Shown one piece after another: positions 34,137-43,531 of a DNA stretch of 63,283 bases (position 1 is the first letter of the stretch; each line of letters starts with the position of its first letter). The notes under the pieces were generated by a model, which worked only from the letters and a program-made list of their open reading frames with translations, ran no database searches and was not told the DNA's origin. The stretch is from a bacterium (lineage in GTDB: Bacteria; JAMCPX01): assembly GCA_021792615.1 (NCBI GenBank), contig JAJYUJ010000015.1:1-63283 (forward strand), written 5' to 3'. The position numbers and the translations under genes were made by a program.

Positions 34137-35378
34137 ATGAGCTTTGTGAAAGGTTTGAGATGCAGAGAATGCGGCGAGATATATCATGTAGCTCCAATAC
34201 ATGTATGCGAGCTATGTTTCGGACCGCTCGAAGTGGTATATGATTACGAAAAAATTAAAAAGGCTATTTCTAAAGAAGCAATAGTGTCAAGAAAAAAGGG
34301 CATGTGGAGATATAAGGAACTTCTTCCAATCGATGGAGAACCTGTCGTCGGCATAGATTCGGGGTTTACGCCGCTTGTTCGATCGAATAAGCTTGCAAAG
34401 GTTCTCGGCGTAAAAGAGCTCTACATAAAAAACGATACGGTCAATCATCCAACTTTTTCATTTAAAGACAGGGTTGTTTCTGTCGCCGTTTCCAAGGCAA
34501 AAGAATTTGGTTTTACTACAGTCGCTTGTGCATCGACCGGCAATCTTGCAAACTCGGTTGCTGCCAGTGCTGCGGCATGCGGAATGAACAGCTACATATT
34601 TATTCCGTACAACCTCGAGCAGGCAAAGGTGCTGAACACGCAGATTTATGGTGCCAATGTCGTTGGGATACGGGGTAATTATGACGAAGTGAACAGGTTG
34701 TCTTCCGAGATAGCGGGTAAATACGGCTGGGCATTTGTCAACATCAATATCCGGCCTTATTATGCAGAGGGCTCAAAGACGCTCGGATTTGAGGTCGCGG
34801 AACAGCTTGGCTGGCGTGTGCCTCAGAATATCGTCGTACCGATGGCAAGCGGTTCGCTTCTGACGAAGGTTTACAAGGGATTCAAAGAGCTCCACGAACT
34901 CGGTTTGGTCCCGGACCTCGATGTTAAACTCTACGGTGCCCAGGCTACCGGATGCTCTCCGATTTCCATGGCAGTGAAAGAACATCAGGAGCTGTTCAAA
35001 CCGGTCATTCCGAAAACGATAGCAAAGTCGCTTGCAATAGGTAATCCTGCAGACGGGTTTTATGCTATTGAAGCCATCAATAAAACAGGAGGATGGTCCG
35101 AGGATGTGTCGGATGATGAGGTTATAGAAGGTATCAAGCTGCTTGCCGAGACCGAGGGTATTTTTGCTGAAACAGCAGGGGGTGTTACCGTGGGAGTTGC
35201 AAAGAAACTCATAGAACAGGGCAGGTTACCGAAGGATGAATCCATCGTATTGCTGATAACAGGGAATGGACTGAAGACCCAGGAAGTTTTATATGACAAG
35301 GTTGAGCCGCTCAAGATTATACCGGCAAAGCTTGCCGCGTTTGATGAGCTCGTAAAAGGAAAGGAAAAAACAAAGTAG
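34137..35378 (+). CDS. thrC: Threonine synthase
   Basis: A 413-residue PLP enzyme that converts O-phosphohomoserine to threonine. The N-terminus has a zinc-ribbon-like pair of Cys motifs (CRECGEIY, CELCFGPL). The Schiff-base Lys is in PTFSFKDRVVSVAVSKA and the phosphate loop in CASTGNLANSVAA. AAGGGAGGT precedes the ATG. It starts the sulfur-carrier cluster, with the cysM start 12 bases after its stop. Given that context it may also be a relative using a different nucleophile on O-phosphohomoserine; threonine synthase remains the main reading. Confidence 0.88.
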   Translation: MSFVKGLRCRECGEIYHVAPIHVCELCFGPLEVVYDYEKIKKAISKEAIVSRKKGMWRYKELLPIDGEPVVGIDSGFTPLVRSNKLAKVLGVKELYIKNDTVNHPTFSFKDRVVSVAVSKAKEFGFTTVACASTGNLANSVAASAAACGMNSYIFIPYNLEQAKVLNTQIYGANVVGIRGNYDEVNRLSSEIAGKYGWAFVNINIRPYYAEGSKTLGFEVAEQLGWRVPQNIVVPMASGSLLTKVYKGFKELHELGLVPDLDVKLYGAQATGCSPISMAVKEHQELFKPVIPKTIAKSLAIGNPADGFYAIEAINKTGGWSEDVSDDEVIEGIKLLAETEGIFAETAGGVTVGVAKKLIEQGRLPKDESIVLLITGNGLKTQEVLYDKVEPLKIIPAKLAAFDELVKGKEKTK

Positions 35379-35390
35379 ATTGTAAATACT

Positions 35391-36320
35391 ATGAAGTTAT
35401 CGAACATTGAAGTAGAAGATGTTGTAAAGGGTACCATACTTGAGATGGTGGGGAATACACCGCTGTACAAACTCAGAGGTTTTTTCCAAAAGAAAACAAA
35501 CTCAACTATCTATGCAAAGCTCGAAAAATATAACCCCGGCGGCTCGGTGAAAGACCGGCCTGCTCTGCGGATGATCCTCGAAGGCATAAAATCAGGCCAG
35601 CTTGCAAAATCGAAGGTCATTCTCGAATCGACATCCGGTAACACGGGCATAGCCCTTGCAATGATAGGAGCCGTTCTCGGTTACCGCGTGAAGATCTATA
35701 TGCCCAAAAACGTCAGCGATGAGAGAAAAAAGACCTTGAACGCCTTTGGTGCCGAGGTCGTATTGACAGACCCTGTCGAGAGTTCCGACGGTGCTTACCG
35801 GGAATGCATTCTCGAGTATGAAAGAAACAGTGAAAAGTATTTCAAGCCCGATCAGTATAACAATCCTGCGAATCCACTCTCTCATTATGAAACGACAGCA
35901 CCTGAAATCATAAAGCAGACGGACGGAAAGATCACGCATTTTATTGCAGGTATAGGTACGGGCGGCACCCTGGTAGGTACCGGGAAAAGATTGAAAGAGT
36001 ACGACCCTTCCATAGAGATAATCGGTGTCGAGCCGGATTCTCCGTTTCACGGGCTTGAAGGGCTCAAACACATAGAAAGTTCGATCGTACCGGGTATCCT
36101 CGACAAAACGTCATACGACCGCGTTATCCATGTGAAAACTGAAGATGCCTACAATCTGGTCAGAGAAGTCGCACGAAAAGAGGGTATACTGGTCGGAGAG
36201 TCTTCCGGAGCGGCACTGTGGGCTTGTTTAAAGGTTGCGCGGGAGATAAAAGATGCTCATATCGTTACCGTATTTCCGGACGGCGGGTCAAATTATTTCA
36301 GTACGAGATTGTGGGAGTAA
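35391..36320 (+). CDS. cysM: Cysteine synthase (CysM-type)
   Basis: A 309-residue fold-type II PLP enzyme. The PLP Lys is in NPGGSVKDRPALRMI, the substrate loop is ESTSGNTGIALAMIGAV and the phosphate-binding loop is GIGTGGTLVGTGKRLK. The NPANPLSHYETTAPEI region resembles thiocarboxylate-using CysM more than classical CysK. It lies between thrC and the JAMM/carrier/moeB genes, so the sulfur donor is probably a carrier-protein thiocarboxylate rather than free sulfide. The acceptor could be O-phosphoserine, O-acetylserine or O-phosphohomoserine. Confidence 0.87.
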   Translation: MKLSNIEVEDVVKGTILEMVGNTPLYKLRGFFQKKTNSTIYAKLEKYNPGGSVKDRPALRMILEGIKSGQLAKSKVILESTSGNTGIALAMIGAVLGYRVKIYMPKNVSDERKKTLNAFGAEVVLTDPVESSDGAYRECILEYERNSEKYFKPDQYNNPANPLSHYETTAPEIIKQTDGKITHFIAGIGTGGTLVGTGKRLKEYDPSIEIIGVEPDSPFHGLEGLKHIESSIVPGILDKTSYDRVIHVKTEDAYNLVREVARKEGILVGESSGAALWACLKVAREIKDAHIVTVFPDGGSNYFSTRLWE

Positions 36321-36321
36321 T

Positions 36322-36729
36322 ATGAAGCTGGGACACACAATGCTCAATCAGATGAAACAGCATCTCGAACAGACATACCCTTACGAGGGTTGCGGTGTGA
36401 TGCTCGGCAAGGATAATACAGCGACGGAAATATACAGAGGTACGAACATCAGACAGGAAAGGCAGGAAGACAGGTTCGTGCTTGATCCCGCGGATATCGT
36501 GCAAGCGGAAAAATATGCAAAACAACGGGGCATCGATGTTTTGGGTTTTTATCATTCTCATCCCGACCATCCTGCCAGACCGTCGGCAACGGATCTGGAG
36601 AGCGCATGGGAAAGCTATTACTACATCATAGTTTCTATAGAAAAAGGGAAGATGGGCACCATAGGATTATTCAGATTATCGGAGCAGGGTAACAGTTTTA
36701 TTGAAGAAACAATAACTTTTGAAGATTAA
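36322..36729 (+). CDS. JAMM/MPN+ metalloprotease (Mec/HcyD-like)
   Basis: A 135-residue JAB1/MPN+ zinc peptidase. The complete motif is visible: Glu22 in PYEGCGVMLG and HSHPDHPARPSATD with His78, His80, Ser88 and Asp91. Bacterial relatives such as Mec cleave a C-terminal amino acid from CysO-cysteine, and HcyD trims a residue off HcyS to bare its Gly-Gly. The ATG lies one base after the cysM stop, and a longer in-frame reading inside cysM is rejected. Next comes the carrier, the likely substrate. Confidence 0.9.
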   Translation: MKLGHTMLNQMKQHLEQTYPYEGCGVMLGKDNTATEIYRGTNIRQERQEDRFVLDPADIVQAEKYAKQRGIDVLGFYHSHPDHPARPSATDLESAWESYYYIIVSIEKGKMGTIGLFRLSEQGNSFIEETITFED

Positions 36730-36743
36730 TGAAGGAGGAAGAT

Positions 36744-37274
36744 ATGGCAATTACAGTCAGGATACCAACACCTTTGAGAAAGTACACCGGCGGTAAAGAT
36801 GAGGTTTCGGCGGAAGGGAAGATACTGAAAGAACTTTTGCAGGACCTCGAGAAGAATTACAACGGCATTGGTGCAAGGATTATGGATGAGAAAGGCGCTA
36901 TACGCCGGTTCGTAAATATTTATCTGAACGATGAAGACGTCAGATTCAAGAGTAACCTCGATACGCCGTTAAAGGACGGAGATGTAATATCGATCATCCC
37001 GGCTATTGCGGGCGGTGCGCCTGCAAAAAAGGGCAAGGTTAAAAAAAAAGTATATCTGACCTATCAAAAAAGACTTTTGAATAAACCCGTTATATGGGAG
37101 GCAAGCAAGAAGTTCGACGTCATAATCAATATAGGAACTGCGTCGGTATCCGGTGACCTCGGACTCGTAGGGGTTGAATTGGAAGGTTCGGGCAGCGAGG
37201 TTGAATCCCTGATAAAGTGGTTTAAAAAGAAAGGCGTAAAAGTAGAGCCTATAGAGCAGACAGTACTGGAGTAA
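36744..37274 (+). CDS. ThiS/MoaD-like sulfur carrier fused to a NIL domain
   Basis: A 176-residue fusion. Residues 1-91 form a ubiquitin-like MoaD/ThiS domain (MAITVRIPTPLRKYTGG, FVNIYLNDEDVRF, LKDGDVISIIPAIAGG) ending in Gly90-Gly91. A basic linker APAKKGKVKKK follows, then residues about 102-176 form a NIL domain (LTYQKRLLNKPVIWEASKKF, VGVELEGSGSEVESLIKWF), the domain found at the C-terminus of the MetN transporter ATPase where it senses methionine. The Gly-Gly can only be adenylated by MoeB after the linker is cut. GGAGGA precedes the ATG at 36744. Flanked by the JAMM protease and moeB. Confidence 0.85.
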   Translation: MAITVRIPTPLRKYTGGKDEVSAEGKILKELLQDLEKNYNGIGARIMDEKGAIRRFVNIYLNDEDVRFKSNLDTPLKDGDVISIIPAIAGGAPAKKGKVKKKVYLTYQKRLLNKPVIWEASKKFDVIINIGTASVSGDLGLVGVELEGSGSEVESLIKWFKKKGVKVEPIEQTVLE

Positions 37275-37281
37275 TCGTATC

Positions 37282-38079
37282 ATGTTGACGAATTCACAGA
37301 TAGAGAGATATGCACGCCATATTATACTCGACGGCGTTGGCGGCAAAGGGCAGGATAAGCTGCTCAAAGCAAAGGTGCTTGTGATAGGCGCGGGAGGGCT
37401 CGGCTCTCCCATTATCATGTACCTTGCTGCAAGCGGTATTGGGACGCTCGGCATTGTCGATTTCGATGTCGTCGACATATCGAACCTCCAAAGGCAGATC
37501 ATGCACTCGACCGCTACCATCGGTATGCCCAAGGTCGATTCTGCGGAAGCGGCCGTCAAATCAATAAACCCCGATGTTTCGGTAATCAAGTATAACATGA
37601 AGCTCACCTCTGACAATATACTGGACGTCATAAAAGATTATGATGTTATTATCGACGGTACGGATTCATTCCCTGCACGGTATCTCATAAACGATGCCTG
37701 TGTTTTGTCCCGTAAAAAGAACGTCTATGGAAGTATTTTCAAATTTGAAGGTCAGGCAACCGTCTTTTCTTCACCGGACGGGCCATGCCTCAGGTGCCTT
37801 TATCCGGAACCTCCACCTCCGGGTATGGTGCCGAGTTGTCAGGAAGCAGGTGTCTTTGGCGTGCTTCCCGGCTTTATCGGTGTCATCCAGGCGACAGAGG
37901 CCATTAAACTGATACTCGGCATTGGAAAACCCCTGATTGGCAGGATGATGCTCTATGATGCATTGCGCATGGAAGTCCGCCAGGTAAAGGTCAGGAAAGA
38001 CCCTGAGTGTCCGGTGTGCGGTGAACATCCTACGGTTACGCACCTTATTGATTATGAGGAGTTTTGCGGTATCAGATGA
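37282..38079 (+). CDS. moeB: MoeB/ThiF-family adenylyltransferase
   Basis: A 265-residue E1-like enzyme that adenylates the C-terminal Gly of a ubiquitin-like carrier. The nucleotide loop is VLVIGAGGLGSPIIMYLAAS, then DFDVVDISNLQRQ, DGTDSFPARYLINDAC, and two zinc Cys pairs CLRC and CPVC. There is no C-terminal rhodanese domain, so sulfur must come from another protein. It follows the carrier by seven bases and overlaps the next gene by four (ATGA). Its likely partner is the NIL-fused carrier. Confidence 0.92.
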   Translation: MLTNSQIERYARHIILDGVGGKGQDKLLKAKVLVIGAGGLGSPIIMYLAASGIGTLGIVDFDVVDISNLQRQIMHSTATIGMPKVDSAEAAVKSINPDVSVIKYNMKLTSDNILDVIKDYDVIIDGTDSFPARYLINDACVLSRKKNVYGSIFKFEGQATVFSSPDGPCLRCLYPEPPPPGMVPSCQEAGVFGVLPGFIGVIQATEAIKLILGIGKPLIGRMMLYDALRMEVRQVKVRKDPECPVCGEHPTVTHLIDYEEFCGIR

Positions 38080-38372
38080 AGCTCTGTATACTTGTTGCAA
38101 TATCCGGCCGTGCCATCATAACCACCGTGCAGAGACTCTACGACGATCACGATAATGAGATACGTTTGTTTCTGTACAATGATGGCGTTTTGCTTTTACA
38201 GGATCCTGCCTTTATGGAGCTGGCAAAGCGTATGCAAGCAACATTGTGCAGTGTAAGCGCGGAAGAGCGCCACATGCAGAAGAATGACAGCATCACCTTC
38301 GGCAGTCTTTACGACTTTTCCCGCATGGTTGCAAAGTCCGATAAGCTCATTTCTTTTACCAGGGAATCATGA
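38076..38372 (+). CDS. Small DsrE/TusD-like sulfur relay protein
   Basis: A 98-residue DsrE-fold protein: ILVAISGRAIITTVQRLYDD, FLYNDGVLLLQDPAFMEL and ATLCSVSAEERHM, where the Cys takes the place of the active persulfide Cys of TusD/DsrE. Similarity is at the fold level. ATG at 38076 overlaps the moeB stop and its own stop overlaps the next gene by four bases, so moeB and the two small genes are coupled. Confidence 0.6.
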   Translation: MKLCILVAISGRAIITTVQRLYDDHDNEIRLFLYNDGVLLLQDPAFMELAKRMQATLCSVSAEERHMQKNDSITFGSLYDFSRMVAKSDKLISFTRES

Positions 38373-38680
38373 AGATTACTGTTTTGATAAAAGACGGTGA
38401 TGGTGCACGGTTGACCGACGGAATAAGGCTGGTACTCGGTCTTACGATCGATCACAGGGTATCGTTGCTGATAACGGATAAAGGTTCTGAAGCCATTTCC
38501 CATGCCATGAAGAGTCCTGCCTTCAAAACTCAATTTCTCGAATCCATGGAGCTTATCAGCAAGATGTCGGGTATTATAAAGACTGAAAAGCCCATTGAGG
38601 ATGCCGAAGCGATAGAAACTATCTCAAGGGATGACTTTACAAAACTTCTTCTTACCGCAGATTCCATAGTAGTTTTTTAA
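38369..38680 (+). CDS. Small DsrF/TusC-like protein
   Basis: A 103-residue protein with alternating strands and helices: MKITVLIKDGDGARLTDGIR, VSLLITDKGSEAISHAMKS, and a C-terminal strand DSIVVF. This resembles DsrF/TusC partners, but it has no cysteine at all, so it would be structural rather than sulfur-carrying. It pairs with the preceding DsrE-like gene through an ATGA overlap. Confidence 0.5.
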   Translation: MKITVLIKDGDGARLTDGIRLVLGLTIDHRVSLLITDKGSEAISHAMKSPAFKTQFLESMELISKMSGIIKTEKPIEDAEAIETISRDDFTKLLLTADSIVVF

Positions 38681-38757
38681 TTTAGGTGAAAGCCCACAGA
38701 CGCTGATGGCGGTAGTGTATGTCTGGCTATACCCTTCAGAGTAAACAAAGATATTTC

Positions 38758-38855
38758 TTGACAAGAAGACTAATAATTAGTTACTTATATATATAAGTAA
38801 AATACTTGTGTATAGAAAAGCATTGTATTCAAGATAGTTGAACTTGTTAGTTGAA
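38758..38855 (+). promoter_or_regulatory. Promoter/operator region of the cysH-DsrE2-tusA genes
   Basis: TTGACA (38758-38763) is followed by a 20-base perfect palindrome TTACTTATATATATAAGTAA (38781-38800) that overlies the expected -10 position. Further on, TTCAA/TTGAA form an inverted repeat (38828-38842) and TAGTTGAA is repeated at 38835 and 38848. The layout suggests a repressor site over the promoter and a second regulator-binding region in the leader. The regulators are not identified. Confidence 0.45.
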
Positions 38856-38901
38856 TTTAAACCAGAGCTTATAAATAAATATGTTATGTATGGAGGATAA
38901 G

Positions 38902-39588
38902 ATGTTTGACAAAGAACGGATTCAGGAACTTTCATTGGAGTTTGAAAATGGTAAGCCGCAGGACACAATTTCATGGGCTTTTAAAACCTTTAACAAAGAT
39001 ATGGCTTTTGCATGCAGCTTTGGCATGGAGGATATCTGTATCATAGATATGCTTTTAAAAGAGTCTCCGGATGCCAGGATATTTTACCTGGATACATCCT
39101 TGTTTTTTAAAGAGACTTACGAGCTGATCAGAAAGCTGGAGGACAGATATAAAACAAAATTTGAATGCGTAAAATCCGATTGCCCGCTTGAGAAGCAGGC
39201 GCAGCAGTACGGAGACGAACTATGGAAGATTACCCCTGACCTCTGCTGTAACATAAGAAAGGTCGCCCCGCTCAAAAAGAAGCTTTCAACGCTGCAGTCA
39301 TGGATGACCGGCATACGGAGAGAGCAGACACCGACACGCGCGAACGCAAAAACCGTGGAGTGGGATGAGAAGTTCAACCTCGTCAAAGTGAATCCTATCG
39401 TAAAATGGGCATGCAACGATGTGCTTGGTTATCTGCTGGAATATGATATACCATACAACCCGCTCCATGATAAAGGGTATCCGAGTATTGGATGTCAACC
39501 CTGCACGTATCCGGTAAACCCGGGTGAAGATTCCCGGGCAGGCAGATGGAGAGGGTTTAATAAAAACGAGTGCGGCCTGCATAAATGA
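38902..39588 (+). CDS. cysH: Adenylyl-sulfate / phosphoadenylyl-sulfate reductase
   Basis: A 228-residue assimilatory reductase making sulfite. The PP-loop region is FACSFGMEDICIIDML and the active Cys is in ECGLHK at the C-terminus. The Cys pairs LCCNIRK and GCQPCTYPV bind a 4Fe-4S cluster, which marks the APS-using (bacterial APR) rather than the PAPS-using enzyme. The ATG at 38902 is seven codons after a possible earlier start and follows TGGAGGAT. It opens the second part of the sulfur cluster. Confidence 0.93.
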   Translation: MFDKERIQELSLEFENGKPQDTISWAFKTFNKDMAFACSFGMEDICIIDMLLKESPDARIFYLDTSLFFKETYELIRKLEDRYKTKFECVKSDCPLEKQAQQYGDELWKITPDLCCNIRKVAPLKKKLSTLQSWMTGIRREQTPTRANAKTVEWDEKFNLVKVNPIVKWACNDVLGYLLEYDIPYNPLHDKGYPSIGCQPCTYPVNPGEDSRAGRWRGFNKNECGLHK

Positions 39589-39702
39589 CACCTGTTGGAG
39601 AGAAGCCAGAAGCAGATGAGTACTGATGGTAAGGTACAGTGAATTTATAGTATTACCAGAGTGAAGGGTAATTACCTTTTAACGGGGTAAAAGGAGGTTA
39701 AA

Positions 39703-40191
39703 ATGGATAAAGCAACACCGGACAAGGCCACGATTGTTGTGTTTTCCGGAGATATGGATAAGGTGATGGCTGCATTCAACATTGCAGTCGGAGCGGCATC
39801 TTCGGGTATGGAGGTTACCATGTTGTTTACCTTCTGGGGATTGAATATTCTGAGGAAGGATAAAATGGGCAGCCAGTCAAAGGGGATCCTTCAAAGGCTC
39901 TTTACGCTCCTCAACAAGGGAGGAACAGAAAAGCTCCCGATGTCACGGTTTAACATGTTCGGCATGGGCCCATGGATGATGAAGAAGCTTATGAAACGGT
40001 ACAGCATGCCGAGTGTAAAGGAGCTCTACTCTGCTGCAAAACAACTTGGTGTTAACGTGATTGCATGCACCATTACCATGGGAGTTATGGGACTCACCAA
40101 GGAGGACCTTGTAGATGATATCGATGAATTCACAGGCGTGATTACCTATATAAAAGATGCAAGGGAATCGAAGATAAATCTTTTTGTATAA
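39703..40191 (+). CDS. DsrE2-like sulfurtransferase (DsrE/DsrF/DrsH family)
   Basis: A 162-residue DsrE-family protein of the DsrE2 kind: ATIVVFSGDMDKVMAAFNIA, EVTMLFTFWGLNILRKDK, MGPWMMKKLMKRYSMPSVKE and the Cys-containing strand VIACTITMGVMGL. DsrE2 proteins hand sulfur to or from TusA and are typically encoded beside it, as here (ten bases). AAAAGGAGGT precedes the ATG. It is membrane-associated in some relatives because of the Met/Trp-rich loop. Confidence 0.85.
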   Translation: MDKATPDKATIVVFSGDMDKVMAAFNIAVGAASSGMEVTMLFTFWGLNILRKDKMGSQSKGILQRLFTLLNKGGTEKLPMSRFNMFGMGPWMMKKLMKRYSMPSVKELYSAAKQLGVNVIACTITMGVMGLTKEDLVDDIDEFTGVITYIKDARESKINLFV

Positions 40192-40201
40192 GGAGGGATG
40201 T

Positions 40202-40432
40202 ATGAATATAAACAAGACCGTGGATGCTGTGGGAATGCTGTGTCCTATGCCGATATTGAAAACGGTTCAGGCTGTAAAGGAGATGAAGGTCGGCGAAGTA
40301 CTCGAGATCGCTGCTACTGATGAAGGGATTAAGAAAGATATTAAGAACTGGTGCGACATGATGGGACACGAACTTATTGATATCCAGGATAAGGATAACA
40401 AGATTATCGTGCATCTGAAAAAGCTGAAATAA
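40202..40432 (+). CDS. tusA: Sulfur carrier protein TusA
   Basis: A 76-residue SirA/TusA protein with DAVGMLCPMPILKTVQAVKE; the Cys of CPMP carries the persulfide. AAGGAGGG lies before the ATG at 40202; an earlier in-frame ATG overlaps the DsrE2 stop. TusA would shuttle sulfur among DsrE proteins and could supply the MoeB-activated carrier, since MoeB here has no rhodanese domain. Confidence 0.93.
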   Translation: MNINKTVDAVGMLCPMPILKTVQAVKEMKVGEVLEIAATDEGIKKDIKNWCDMMGHELIDIQDKDNKIIVHLKKLK

Positions 40433-42169: not shown

Positions 42170-42369
42170 CGGTATGCCGGGTCCGTCGATTGTTTGCCGG
42201 CGGGCAGGACACTGAGTGATCCCCAGTAGTCTTCCCTGTATTGCTGGAGGTAATTTTTGACAGCAAAGTACGTGCTTTCCCATAAGACCTTATGTTTAAA
42301 GCAAGCCCCAACCTTGTTATATAGATTATGTTTAAGGGTAACAAAAAATATAAACAAAGGAGGCTTGCT
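42170..42369 (+). ncRNA. Candidate IS110 bridge RNA region
   Basis: The 200 bases before the transposase have no gene but several internal repeats: the hairpin CCCCGGTATGCCGGG-like stem at about 42167-42182, and a direct repeat TTATGTTTAA (42290-42299 and 42326-42335). IS110-group elements carry a structured bridge RNA of about 150-200 nt in the non-coding end upstream of the transposase. I infer its presence by position only; loops that pair with target and donor were not worked out. Confidence 0.3.
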
Positions 42370-43531
42370 ATGAAGAATAGTAAAGGATTGGATTTCACTG
42401 GTCAATCGATTTTCGTCGGTATCGACATTGGCAAACGTAGTTGGGAGGTATGCATTCTTACCGAGCATCACGAGCATAAAGTATTTACCCAGTCACCCCA
42501 GGTAGATGTGCTGGTTAGGTATCTGAGGCGGATGTTTCCCGGAGCTATCTACTCGTGTGTGTATGAGGCAGGGTTCTGTGGCTTCTGGATCCACGATGAA
42601 CTGGAACGCCAGGGTGTTCGATGTATGGTGGTGAATCCTGCCGATGTGCCGACCAAGCACAAGGAACAGGTCACCAAGACGGACCGGGTAGATGCCCGTA
42701 AGCTTGCGCGGGGGTTAAGGAATGGGGAATTCGAGTCTATTTATGTTCCTCCAAGAGATGCGCTTGAAGACCGTAGTCTAGTCAGAACACGTCTGCAATT
42801 TATCAGGAAACAGACCCGCTGTAAGAACCAGATCAAGGCCATGCTCTATTTCTATGGGATTACCCTGCCTGAAAACGCTGCACGGAATTGGTCCAAACGA
42901 TTTATAACATGGCTTGAACAGGTACGCATGGAACAGGCAAGCGGAGACCAAATATTGAAACTCTTACTTGAAGAACTCCATCATCTCCGAGACACGATAG
43001 CGAACCTTACGAAACAAATCAGGGTGTTGGCATTCAGCAACAAGTATGGTGAGTCAGTTCAGTATTTGTGTTCTATCCCCGGTATCAGCCCATTAATTGC
43101 GATGACTCTCCTCACAGAACTTGTTGATATAAACCGTTTTGAAAGCCTGGATAAGCTTGCCAGCTATGTCGGCTTAATACCCGGGCAGCATTCCAGTGGC
43201 GAGGAAGAAATGATGACCGGGCTTGTCACGCGCATAAACGCTTTTCTGAAGTATGTGCTTATAGAGAGTGCCTGGGTTGCCGTGAAAAAGGACCCTGCAC
43301 TCATAATGGCGTTTAACAAATTGGCGCACCGGATGCCAAAGAACAAGGCGATTATCCGTATTACGAAAAAATTATTAAGCAGGATTATGTTTGTTGTTAA
43401 ACATAAACAGCCATACCGTTTCAGTATGGTTGCATAACCTGTGGACACAAACTATTGCATCGGTATTTTTGAGCAAACGCTATAATCTTTCTGCAGCTCT
43501 TAAGATATAAGATGTCTGCTTTCCATAAGAC
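42273..43531 (+). mobile_element. IS110-family insertion sequence (boundaries approximate)
   Basis: The element contains one intact transposase gene. Near-identical 15/16-base sequences flank it: TGCTTTCCCATAAGAC at 42273-42288 and TGCTTTCCATAAGAC at 43517-43531. TTATGTTTAA upstream has an inverted copy TTAAACATAA at 43397-43406 inside the end of the gene. IS110 elements lack classical terminal inverted repeats, so exact ends cannot be fixed; the left end may extend back to about 42170. Insertion lies between the peroxiredoxin gene and an AT-rich secreted-protein block. Confidence 0.55.
42370..43437 (+). CDS. IS110-family transposase (DEDD recombinase)
   Basis: A 355-residue transposase. N-terminal RuvC-like DEDD domain: FVGIDIGKRSWEVC (Asp), YSCVYEAGFCGFWI (Glu), VTKTDRVDARKLARGL (Asp, Asp). 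C-terminal Transposase_20 domain: LCSIPGISPLIAMTLLTELV and SYVGLIPGQHSSGEEEM, with the serine nucleophile in the HSSG stretch. The gene is full length and without frameshift, so the element may be active. The ATG at 42370 follows AAAGGAGG. Confidence 0.93.
   Translation: MKNSKGLDFTGQSIFVGIDIGKRSWEVCILTEHHEHKVFTQSPQVDVLVRYLRRMFPGAIYSCVYEAGFCGFWIHDELERQGVRCMVVNPADVPTKHKEQVTKTDRVDARKLARGLRNGEFESIYVPPRDALEDRSLVRTRLQFIRKQTRCKNQIKAMLYFYGITLPENAARNWSKRFITWLEQVRMEQASGDQILKLLLEELHHLRDTIANLTKQIRVLAFSNKYGESVQYLCSIPGISPLIAMTLLTELVDINRFESLDKLASYVGLIPGQHSSGEEEMMTGLVTRINAFLKYVLIESAWVAVKKDPALIMAFNKLAHRMPKNKAIIRITKKLLSRIMFVVKHKQPYRFSMVA

Follow-up and report, generated by a model that had tools for sequence, protein, structure and literature searches.

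The window, a 63,283-nucleotide stretch of bacterial DNA, contains a compact run of genes on the forward strand. The run begins with a threonine-synthase paralogue of 413 residues (positions 34137 to 35378; PALP/thrC match), designated ThrC2, and continues with a CysM-like PLP enzyme (35391 to 36320; cysM and cysKM models), a metalloprotease of the JAMM/Prok-JAB family (36322 to 36729; PF14464, E = 6.9e-23; PDB relatives 2kcq and 5ld9/5lda), a sulfur carrier fused to a NIL domain (36744 to 37274), and an E1-like adenylyltransferase of the MoeB/ThiF family (37282 to 38079; PF00899, E = 1.1e-84), which has two CxxC motifs and no rhodanese domain. The CysM-like enzyme is presumably a carrier-dependent cysteine synthase. 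The active-site motif of the JAMM protein is intact (HSHPDHPARPSATD, HxH-x10-D, plus Glu), and the locus therefore combines a carrier-Gly-Gly-partner chain with a JAMM protease retaining its active site.

Sulfur genes follow the cluster on the same strand (38064 to 40432). They encode a small DsrE/DsrF-like protein, possibly a sulfur relay (38064 to 38372; PF02635, E = 6.5e-6; conserved in family f1), a 103-residue open reading frame, the APS/PAPS reductase CysH of sulfur assimilation (38881 to 39588; profile matches), a DsrE2-family protein (39703 to 40191; PF13686, E = 3.4e-49), and a TusA-like sulfur carrier (40184 to 40432; PF01206, E = 3.8e-23). These proteins could relay sulfur to the rhodanese-less E1. 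Just downstream, the open reading frame at 42328 to 43440 resembles, by eye, an IS110-type transposase.

The carrier-NIL gene encodes 176 residues (ATG at 36744, stop codon at 37272 to 37274), although an alternative in-frame ATG at 36729 is possible. The earlier note had described the protein as a ThiS/MoaD part with a buried Gly90-Gly91, a basic linker, and a NIL domain, an architecture borne out by Pfam, an AlphaFold model, and Foldseek. The carrier domain, of the ThiS/MoaD (CysO) type, spans residues 1 to 91 (36744 to 37016) and ends in Gly90-Gly91; PF02597 matches residues 5 to 91 (E = 1.7e-18, 67.4 bits for a cut-off of 22.5). APAKKGKVKKKV comes directly behind the two glycines, and the basic linker, in which the predicted cleavage region lies right behind Gly91, extends over residues 92 to 101 (37017 to 37046). 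The NIL domain occupies residues 102 to 176 (37047 to 37274) and is matched by PF09383 over residues 103 to 168 (E = 1.9e-9, 37.7 bits for a cut-off of 24). In the AlphaFold model, a β-grasp domain is joined by a stretch of low confidence (low pLDDT at residues 88 to 93) to a β-α-β-β-α-β domain. The top PDB folds were CysO (4n6e, 3dwg) for the carrier part and the NIL domain of MetN (3tui, 3tuz) for the C-terminal part, so that profile and fold agree for each half.

The same fusion was present in all seven relatives of the genus or family where it was found (78–93% identity) and in unrelated genomes (about 50–57% identity). Both glycines were invariant in 17 of the 17 aligned fusions, and the linker varied in length and sequence. 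The fusion is therefore genuine, neither a chance event nor a product of assembly. As encoded, the protein has no free C-terminal Gly-Gly, since the motif is located at residues 90 and 91 of 176 and can be freed only by cleavage. In the NIL domain, Asn129 aligns with Asn295 of MetN, a residue important for regulation by methionine; it was kept in 54 of 55 sequences. The domain also has a conserved C-terminal tail, VEPIExxVxE. Its identity as NIL and the link to homocysteine that had been claimed for it are both supported. No second NIL domain was detected in the window's genome (99.55% complete).

Fused and split carriers and the distribution of JAMM

A scan of GTDB genomes for related loci provided a best-scoring sample of at least 80 loci. 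Among the matches listed, thrC2 and ThiS formed the pair of genes that varied least, as a rule with NIL behind it, and spanned Verrucomicrobia, Planctomycetes, Zeta- and Deltaproteobacteria, Nitrospirae, and one Chloroflexi MAG. The cysM gene, present in many but not all related clusters, and the JAMM and E1 genes were less constant among these matches. In most relatives, NIL was encoded by a separate gene right behind a carrier ending in Gly-Gly or in Gly-Gly plus one or two residues, and parsimony required three changes between the fused and split states on the tree. Thus, NIL appears to be a conserved partner acting in trans, the ThiS-NIL fusion being a derived or alternative state. No NIL gene was found nearby in several genomes harboring thrC2 and the carrier (Planctomycetes, Aquificaceae), indicating that the core reaction can proceed without NIL; its frequent separation and its absence from these neighborhoods make a regulator or helper more likely than a catalytic part. 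In two loci (L138 in genome G046, and L089), the NIL gene lay behind JAMM or cysM instead of beside the carrier.

Extension of the carrier beyond Gly-Gly was associated with JAMM. A genomic JAMM was found in 23 of 25 lineages with tailed or fused carriers, the two exceptions being incomplete MAGs (G038, 86% complete; G039, 89% complete), whereas 5 of 13 carriers ending exactly in Gly-Gly were in genomes with JAMM and 8 of 13 in genomes lacking a convincing one (Fisher p = 0.0009, kinship ignored). The Verrucomicrobial carrier ends precisely in AIAGG*, NIL is encoded separately, and 8 of 10 genomes have no convincing JAMM. Verrucomicrobial Prok-JAB matches of 21–24 bits and about 240 residues look RadC-like and were left out of this count; G089 and G090, with Prok-JAB matches above the cut-off, were counted as JAMM-positive. 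The joining of the Verrucomicrobial carrier and NIL by tblastn had suggested fusions, which were rejected on the basis of the stop codon located exactly behind Gly-Gly.

Release of the product from the CysO carrier is a known role of JAMM proteases, and the occurrence of JAMM beside bare Gly-Gly carriers is consistent with such a further role. The JAMM protein of the window may therefore cut after Gly91, release an amino acid from the carrier, or both. The linear MoaD-MoaE fusion of Deinococcus is cut by DRJAMM, leaving a C-terminal glycine (PMC8832034). This precedent, together with the correlation between JAMM and carrier tails, makes it likely that the window protein is cut behind Gly91; its Gly-Gly probably has to be bared in this way, and the neighboring JAMM is the likely protease.

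We also considered that the uncut ThiS-NIL protein might be the functional form, with the Gly-Gly a relic. A MoaD-DUF1952 fusion from Thermus (PDB 1v8c), in which a buried Gly-Gly is followed by a small domain as in the window, albeit DUF1952 instead of NIL, was crystallized as a two-domain chain. However, a permanent fusion is very unlikely given the invariance of both glycines, the correlation of tails and fusions with JAMM, and the MoaD-MoaE precedent. A Thermus-like lineage in our sample (L026, genome G027) has the architecture of 1v8c; its MoaD-DUF1952 fusion contains an internal VAGG and, at the extreme C-terminus, a second GGG. If cleavage is the correct reading, carriers with a bare Gly-Gly, a short tail, or a full fusion form a natural series for studying the processing of carriers by JAMM.

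ThrC2, SAM riboswitches, and the route to homocysteine

ThrC2 is the second threonine-synthase paralogue of the window's genome, which encodes its canonical ThrC elsewhere (C48:26758-27717). Another ThrC was kept in nearly every genome harboring ThrC2, and ThrC2 alone was detected in G005 (92% complete). ThrC2 shares the fold and the PLP lysine of threonine synthases (1uim, 2zsj, 6cgq) but differs from them at all four substrate-site motifs tested, which were replaced in all ThrC2 sequences: T(L/F)SFKDR (TFSFKDR in the window) in place of TGSFKDR, ASTGNL in place of ASTGNT, N(I/V)RP(Y/F)Y(A/G)EGSK (NIRPYYAEGSK in the window) in place of SVNPYRLEGQK, and PMASGSL in place of PVGNAGN. A profile built for ThrC2 gave at least 700 bits for ThrC2 and at most 386 bits for all other ThrC matches in 46 genomes. 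Several of the changed positions presumably contact the substrate phosphate in the threonine synthase of Thermus, and an ordinary threonine synthase activity is therefore unlikely for ThrC2. If the homocysteine role proposed below is right, a widespread "threonine synthase" annotation would be corrected. An N-terminal Cys4 knuckle (CRECG...HVCELCFGP; 34137 to 34230 in the window) was conserved among ThrC2 sequences, whereas canonical ThrC lacks it.

Searches for regulatory RNAs revealed a SAM-I riboswitch at the head of 34 of the 39 thrC2 operons of relatives that were searched (46–96 bits for a cut-off of 44.4). None of the 20 canonical thrC loci searched had one (p = 1.9e-11, uncorrected). 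In 32 of the 34 operons, the riboswitch was located directly 5' of thrC2, 80–201 bases ahead of the ThrC2 match. G019 also has a SAM riboswitch. SAM riboswitches control methionine genes, not threonine genes, and the assignment of the thrC2-carrier operon to the methionine pathway is well supported. No SAM riboswitch was detected in the window or its family, nor any Rfam element in the window's cluster, loose thresholds included. In two loci, the gene behind the SAM riboswitch is not thrC2 but cysM-MoeB or MoeB (L039, 3171 to 3283; L089, 7798 to 7910), so that SAM control extends to E1 and CysM-like genes.

The earlier note had proposed a pro-carrier with an inhibitory NIL tail, the binding of methionine to this tail setting cleavage by JAMM and hence maturation of the carrier. 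The location of the buried Gly-Gly beside a JAMM gene, the equivalent of MetN Asn295, the low-confidence and probably flexible junction, and the lack, in the window's family, of the riboswitch found in most related operons, which leaves room for feedback at the protein level, are all compatible with such gating. However, a NIL domain encoded by a separate gene, as in most relatives, cannot mask the Gly-Gly; other carriers have short non-NIL tails in the presence of JAMM; and the SAM riboswitch is retained in fused lineages (L033, L035–L037, and L048). Thus, the notion of a pro-carrier is supported by the association between JAMM and tails or fusions, but gating of its maturation by the tail is quite improbable.

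The window's genome encodes MetH. A family-by-family search of this genome (99.55% complete) identified no full-length Cys_Met_Meta_PP enzyme (MetB/MetY/MetZ type) and no HcyBio, MetX, or MetA. Weak PF01053 matches in G000 were considered as MetB/MetY candidates and rejected, all being partial (they cover about 110–180 of the 381 positions and score no more than 39 bits) and resembling other PLP enzymes; a very divergent enzyme could escape this search. Of 22 other genomes with thrC2, 18 lacked both Cys_Met_Meta_PP and HcyBio. In a sample of 52 families, both were lacking in 7 of 11 families with ThrC2 versus 6 of 41 families in which ThrC2 was absent (p = 0.0025). Classical enzymes were kept in some thrC2 genomes (G036, G039, G046, G054, G061, G065, G066, and G074), and MetX or MetA was restricted, among ThrC2 genomes, to those also having a Cys_Met_Meta_PP enzyme. 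Six genomes (G010, G011, G021, G037, G041, and G057) had neither ThrC2 nor Cys_Met_Meta_PP nor HcyBio; they may belong to auxotrophs or use yet another route to homocysteine.

Since no acyl-homoserine would be made in the absence of MetX and MetA, O-phosphohomoserine is likely to be the activated substrate of ThrC2, although the loss of phosphate-contacting residues makes this assignment uncertain and calls for caution. Price et al. (2018) concluded that at least one further homocysteine pathway was still undiscovered and named Aquifex aeolicus, Pyrolobus, and Acidimicrobium (PMC5764234). The Aquificaceae genomes examined encode both the carrier and ThrC2, and the ThrC2-carrier(-NIL) set could fill this gap, being a candidate for Aquifex and others. 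If correct, this would provide a testable gene set and reduce false predictions of methionine auxotrophy.

A pathway limited to cysteine would require only that the carrier serve CysM, as in Mycobacterium, with thrC and NIL as incidental neighbors. The carrier is indeed closest to CysO, it adjoins cysM, JAMM, and E1, and actinobacterial loci have the order JAMM-ThiS-cysM with no thrC. This explanation is nevertheless quite unlikely to be correct: the thrC2-ThiS(-NIL) set persists in Verrucomicrobia and Planctomycetes without a neighboring cysM, SAM riboswitches mark a methionine operon, and a route to homocysteine would otherwise be missing.

Proposed pathway and relation to known systems

The ThiS-NIL protein may be likened to a ubiquitin fusion, combining a CysO-like sulfur carrier with a NIL domain that would act in trans. 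Cleavage after Gly91 by the neighboring JAMM would free the two parts, and the neighboring E1 would adenylate the new C-terminal glycine of the carrier, leading to the thiocarboxylate. ThrC2, the proposed thiocarboxylate-dependent homocysteine synthase, would transfer sulfur from carrier-COSH onto an activated homoserine, most likely O-phosphohomoserine. The resulting homocysteine would leave ThrC2 directly or after hydrolysis by JAMM and be converted into methionine by MetH. CysM may draw on the same carrier for cysteine. NIL, which accompanies ThrC2 and the carrier as a conserved partner, would bind methionine or homocysteine, and it is a reasonable guess that it is an allosteric sensor. We consider it probable that this model is correct as a whole, that is, that a cleavable CysO-like carrier-NIL fusion supplies carrier-COSH to ThrC2, which provides homocysteine for MetH.

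Alternatively, ThrC2 might form homocysteine with free sulfide, or by some other mechanism, and the carrier would then be a modifier or regulator instead of supplying the sulfur. The thrC2 and carrier genes are not adjacent in the Thermocrinis and Hydrogenobaculum genomes, and no E1 gene was found near the Verrucomicrobial operons in the gene neighborhoods of the matches listed, as might be expected if the carrier were not the donor. We regard this possibility as unlikely, since the thrC2-carrier adjacency is tight across phyla and the Gly-Gly is strictly conserved.

The types of components required by the carrier-COSH model are each known: CysO carriers, carrier fusions cut by JAMM, NIL domains in homocysteine synthesis, and thiocarboxylate-dependent methionine synthesis in Wolinella. 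In the open-license literature, including surveys of SAM riboswitches, we found no report of a ThrC2, carrier, and NIL set under SAM control, which may have been published elsewhere. In our estimate, the chances are about even that the set represents a homocysteine pathway without earlier description, present in many phyla, in which ThrC2 draws on O-phosphohomoserine and a protein thiocarboxylate, a dedicated NIL senses methionine, and, in some lineages, carrier and NIL are made as a single pro-protein cut by JAMM.

The nearest systems by carrier fold and sequence are CysO-CysM-Mec+ of Mycobacterium (3dwg, 3dwm) and BexX/CysO of Amycolatopsis (4n6e), which also have CysM and JAMM neighbors. 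In contrast to these, the carrier of the window has NIL behind it, its main partner appears to be ThrC2, and the operon of its relatives is controlled by a SAM riboswitch. Krishnamoorthy and Begley, cited in PMC5764234, reportedly described in 2011 a synthesis of homocysteine from a protein thiocarboxylate in Wolinella, involving HcyS-HcyD-HcyF and an O-acetylhomoserine sulfhydrylase, in which JAMM is said to trim the carrier tail. The pathway proposed here would likewise proceed through a protein thiocarboxylate. The Wolinella pathway differs by its Cys_Met_Meta_PP enzyme, a PLP enzyme of a different fold, and by the lack of NIL; the window's genome has neither this sulfhydrylase nor MetX.

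In the HcyBio (DUF39) and NIL/ferredoxin pathway, a NIL protein participates in homocysteine formation, as proposed for the window, and homoserine is not an intermediate (PMC5764234); the window's genome lacks HcyBio, and its sole detected NIL has no ferredoxin domain. The MoaD-MoaE protein of Deinococcus (PMC8832034) resembles that of the window in the fusion of a sulfur carrier to a partner freed by JAMM, as predicted for the window, but the partner is MoaE, of molybdopterin synthase, instead of NIL. Finally, the window NIL has the fold and the Asn295 position of the C2/NIL domain of MetN (3dhx, 3tui), from which it differs by its conserved VEPIExxVxE tail and by its location on a carrier protein with no ABC transporter attached.
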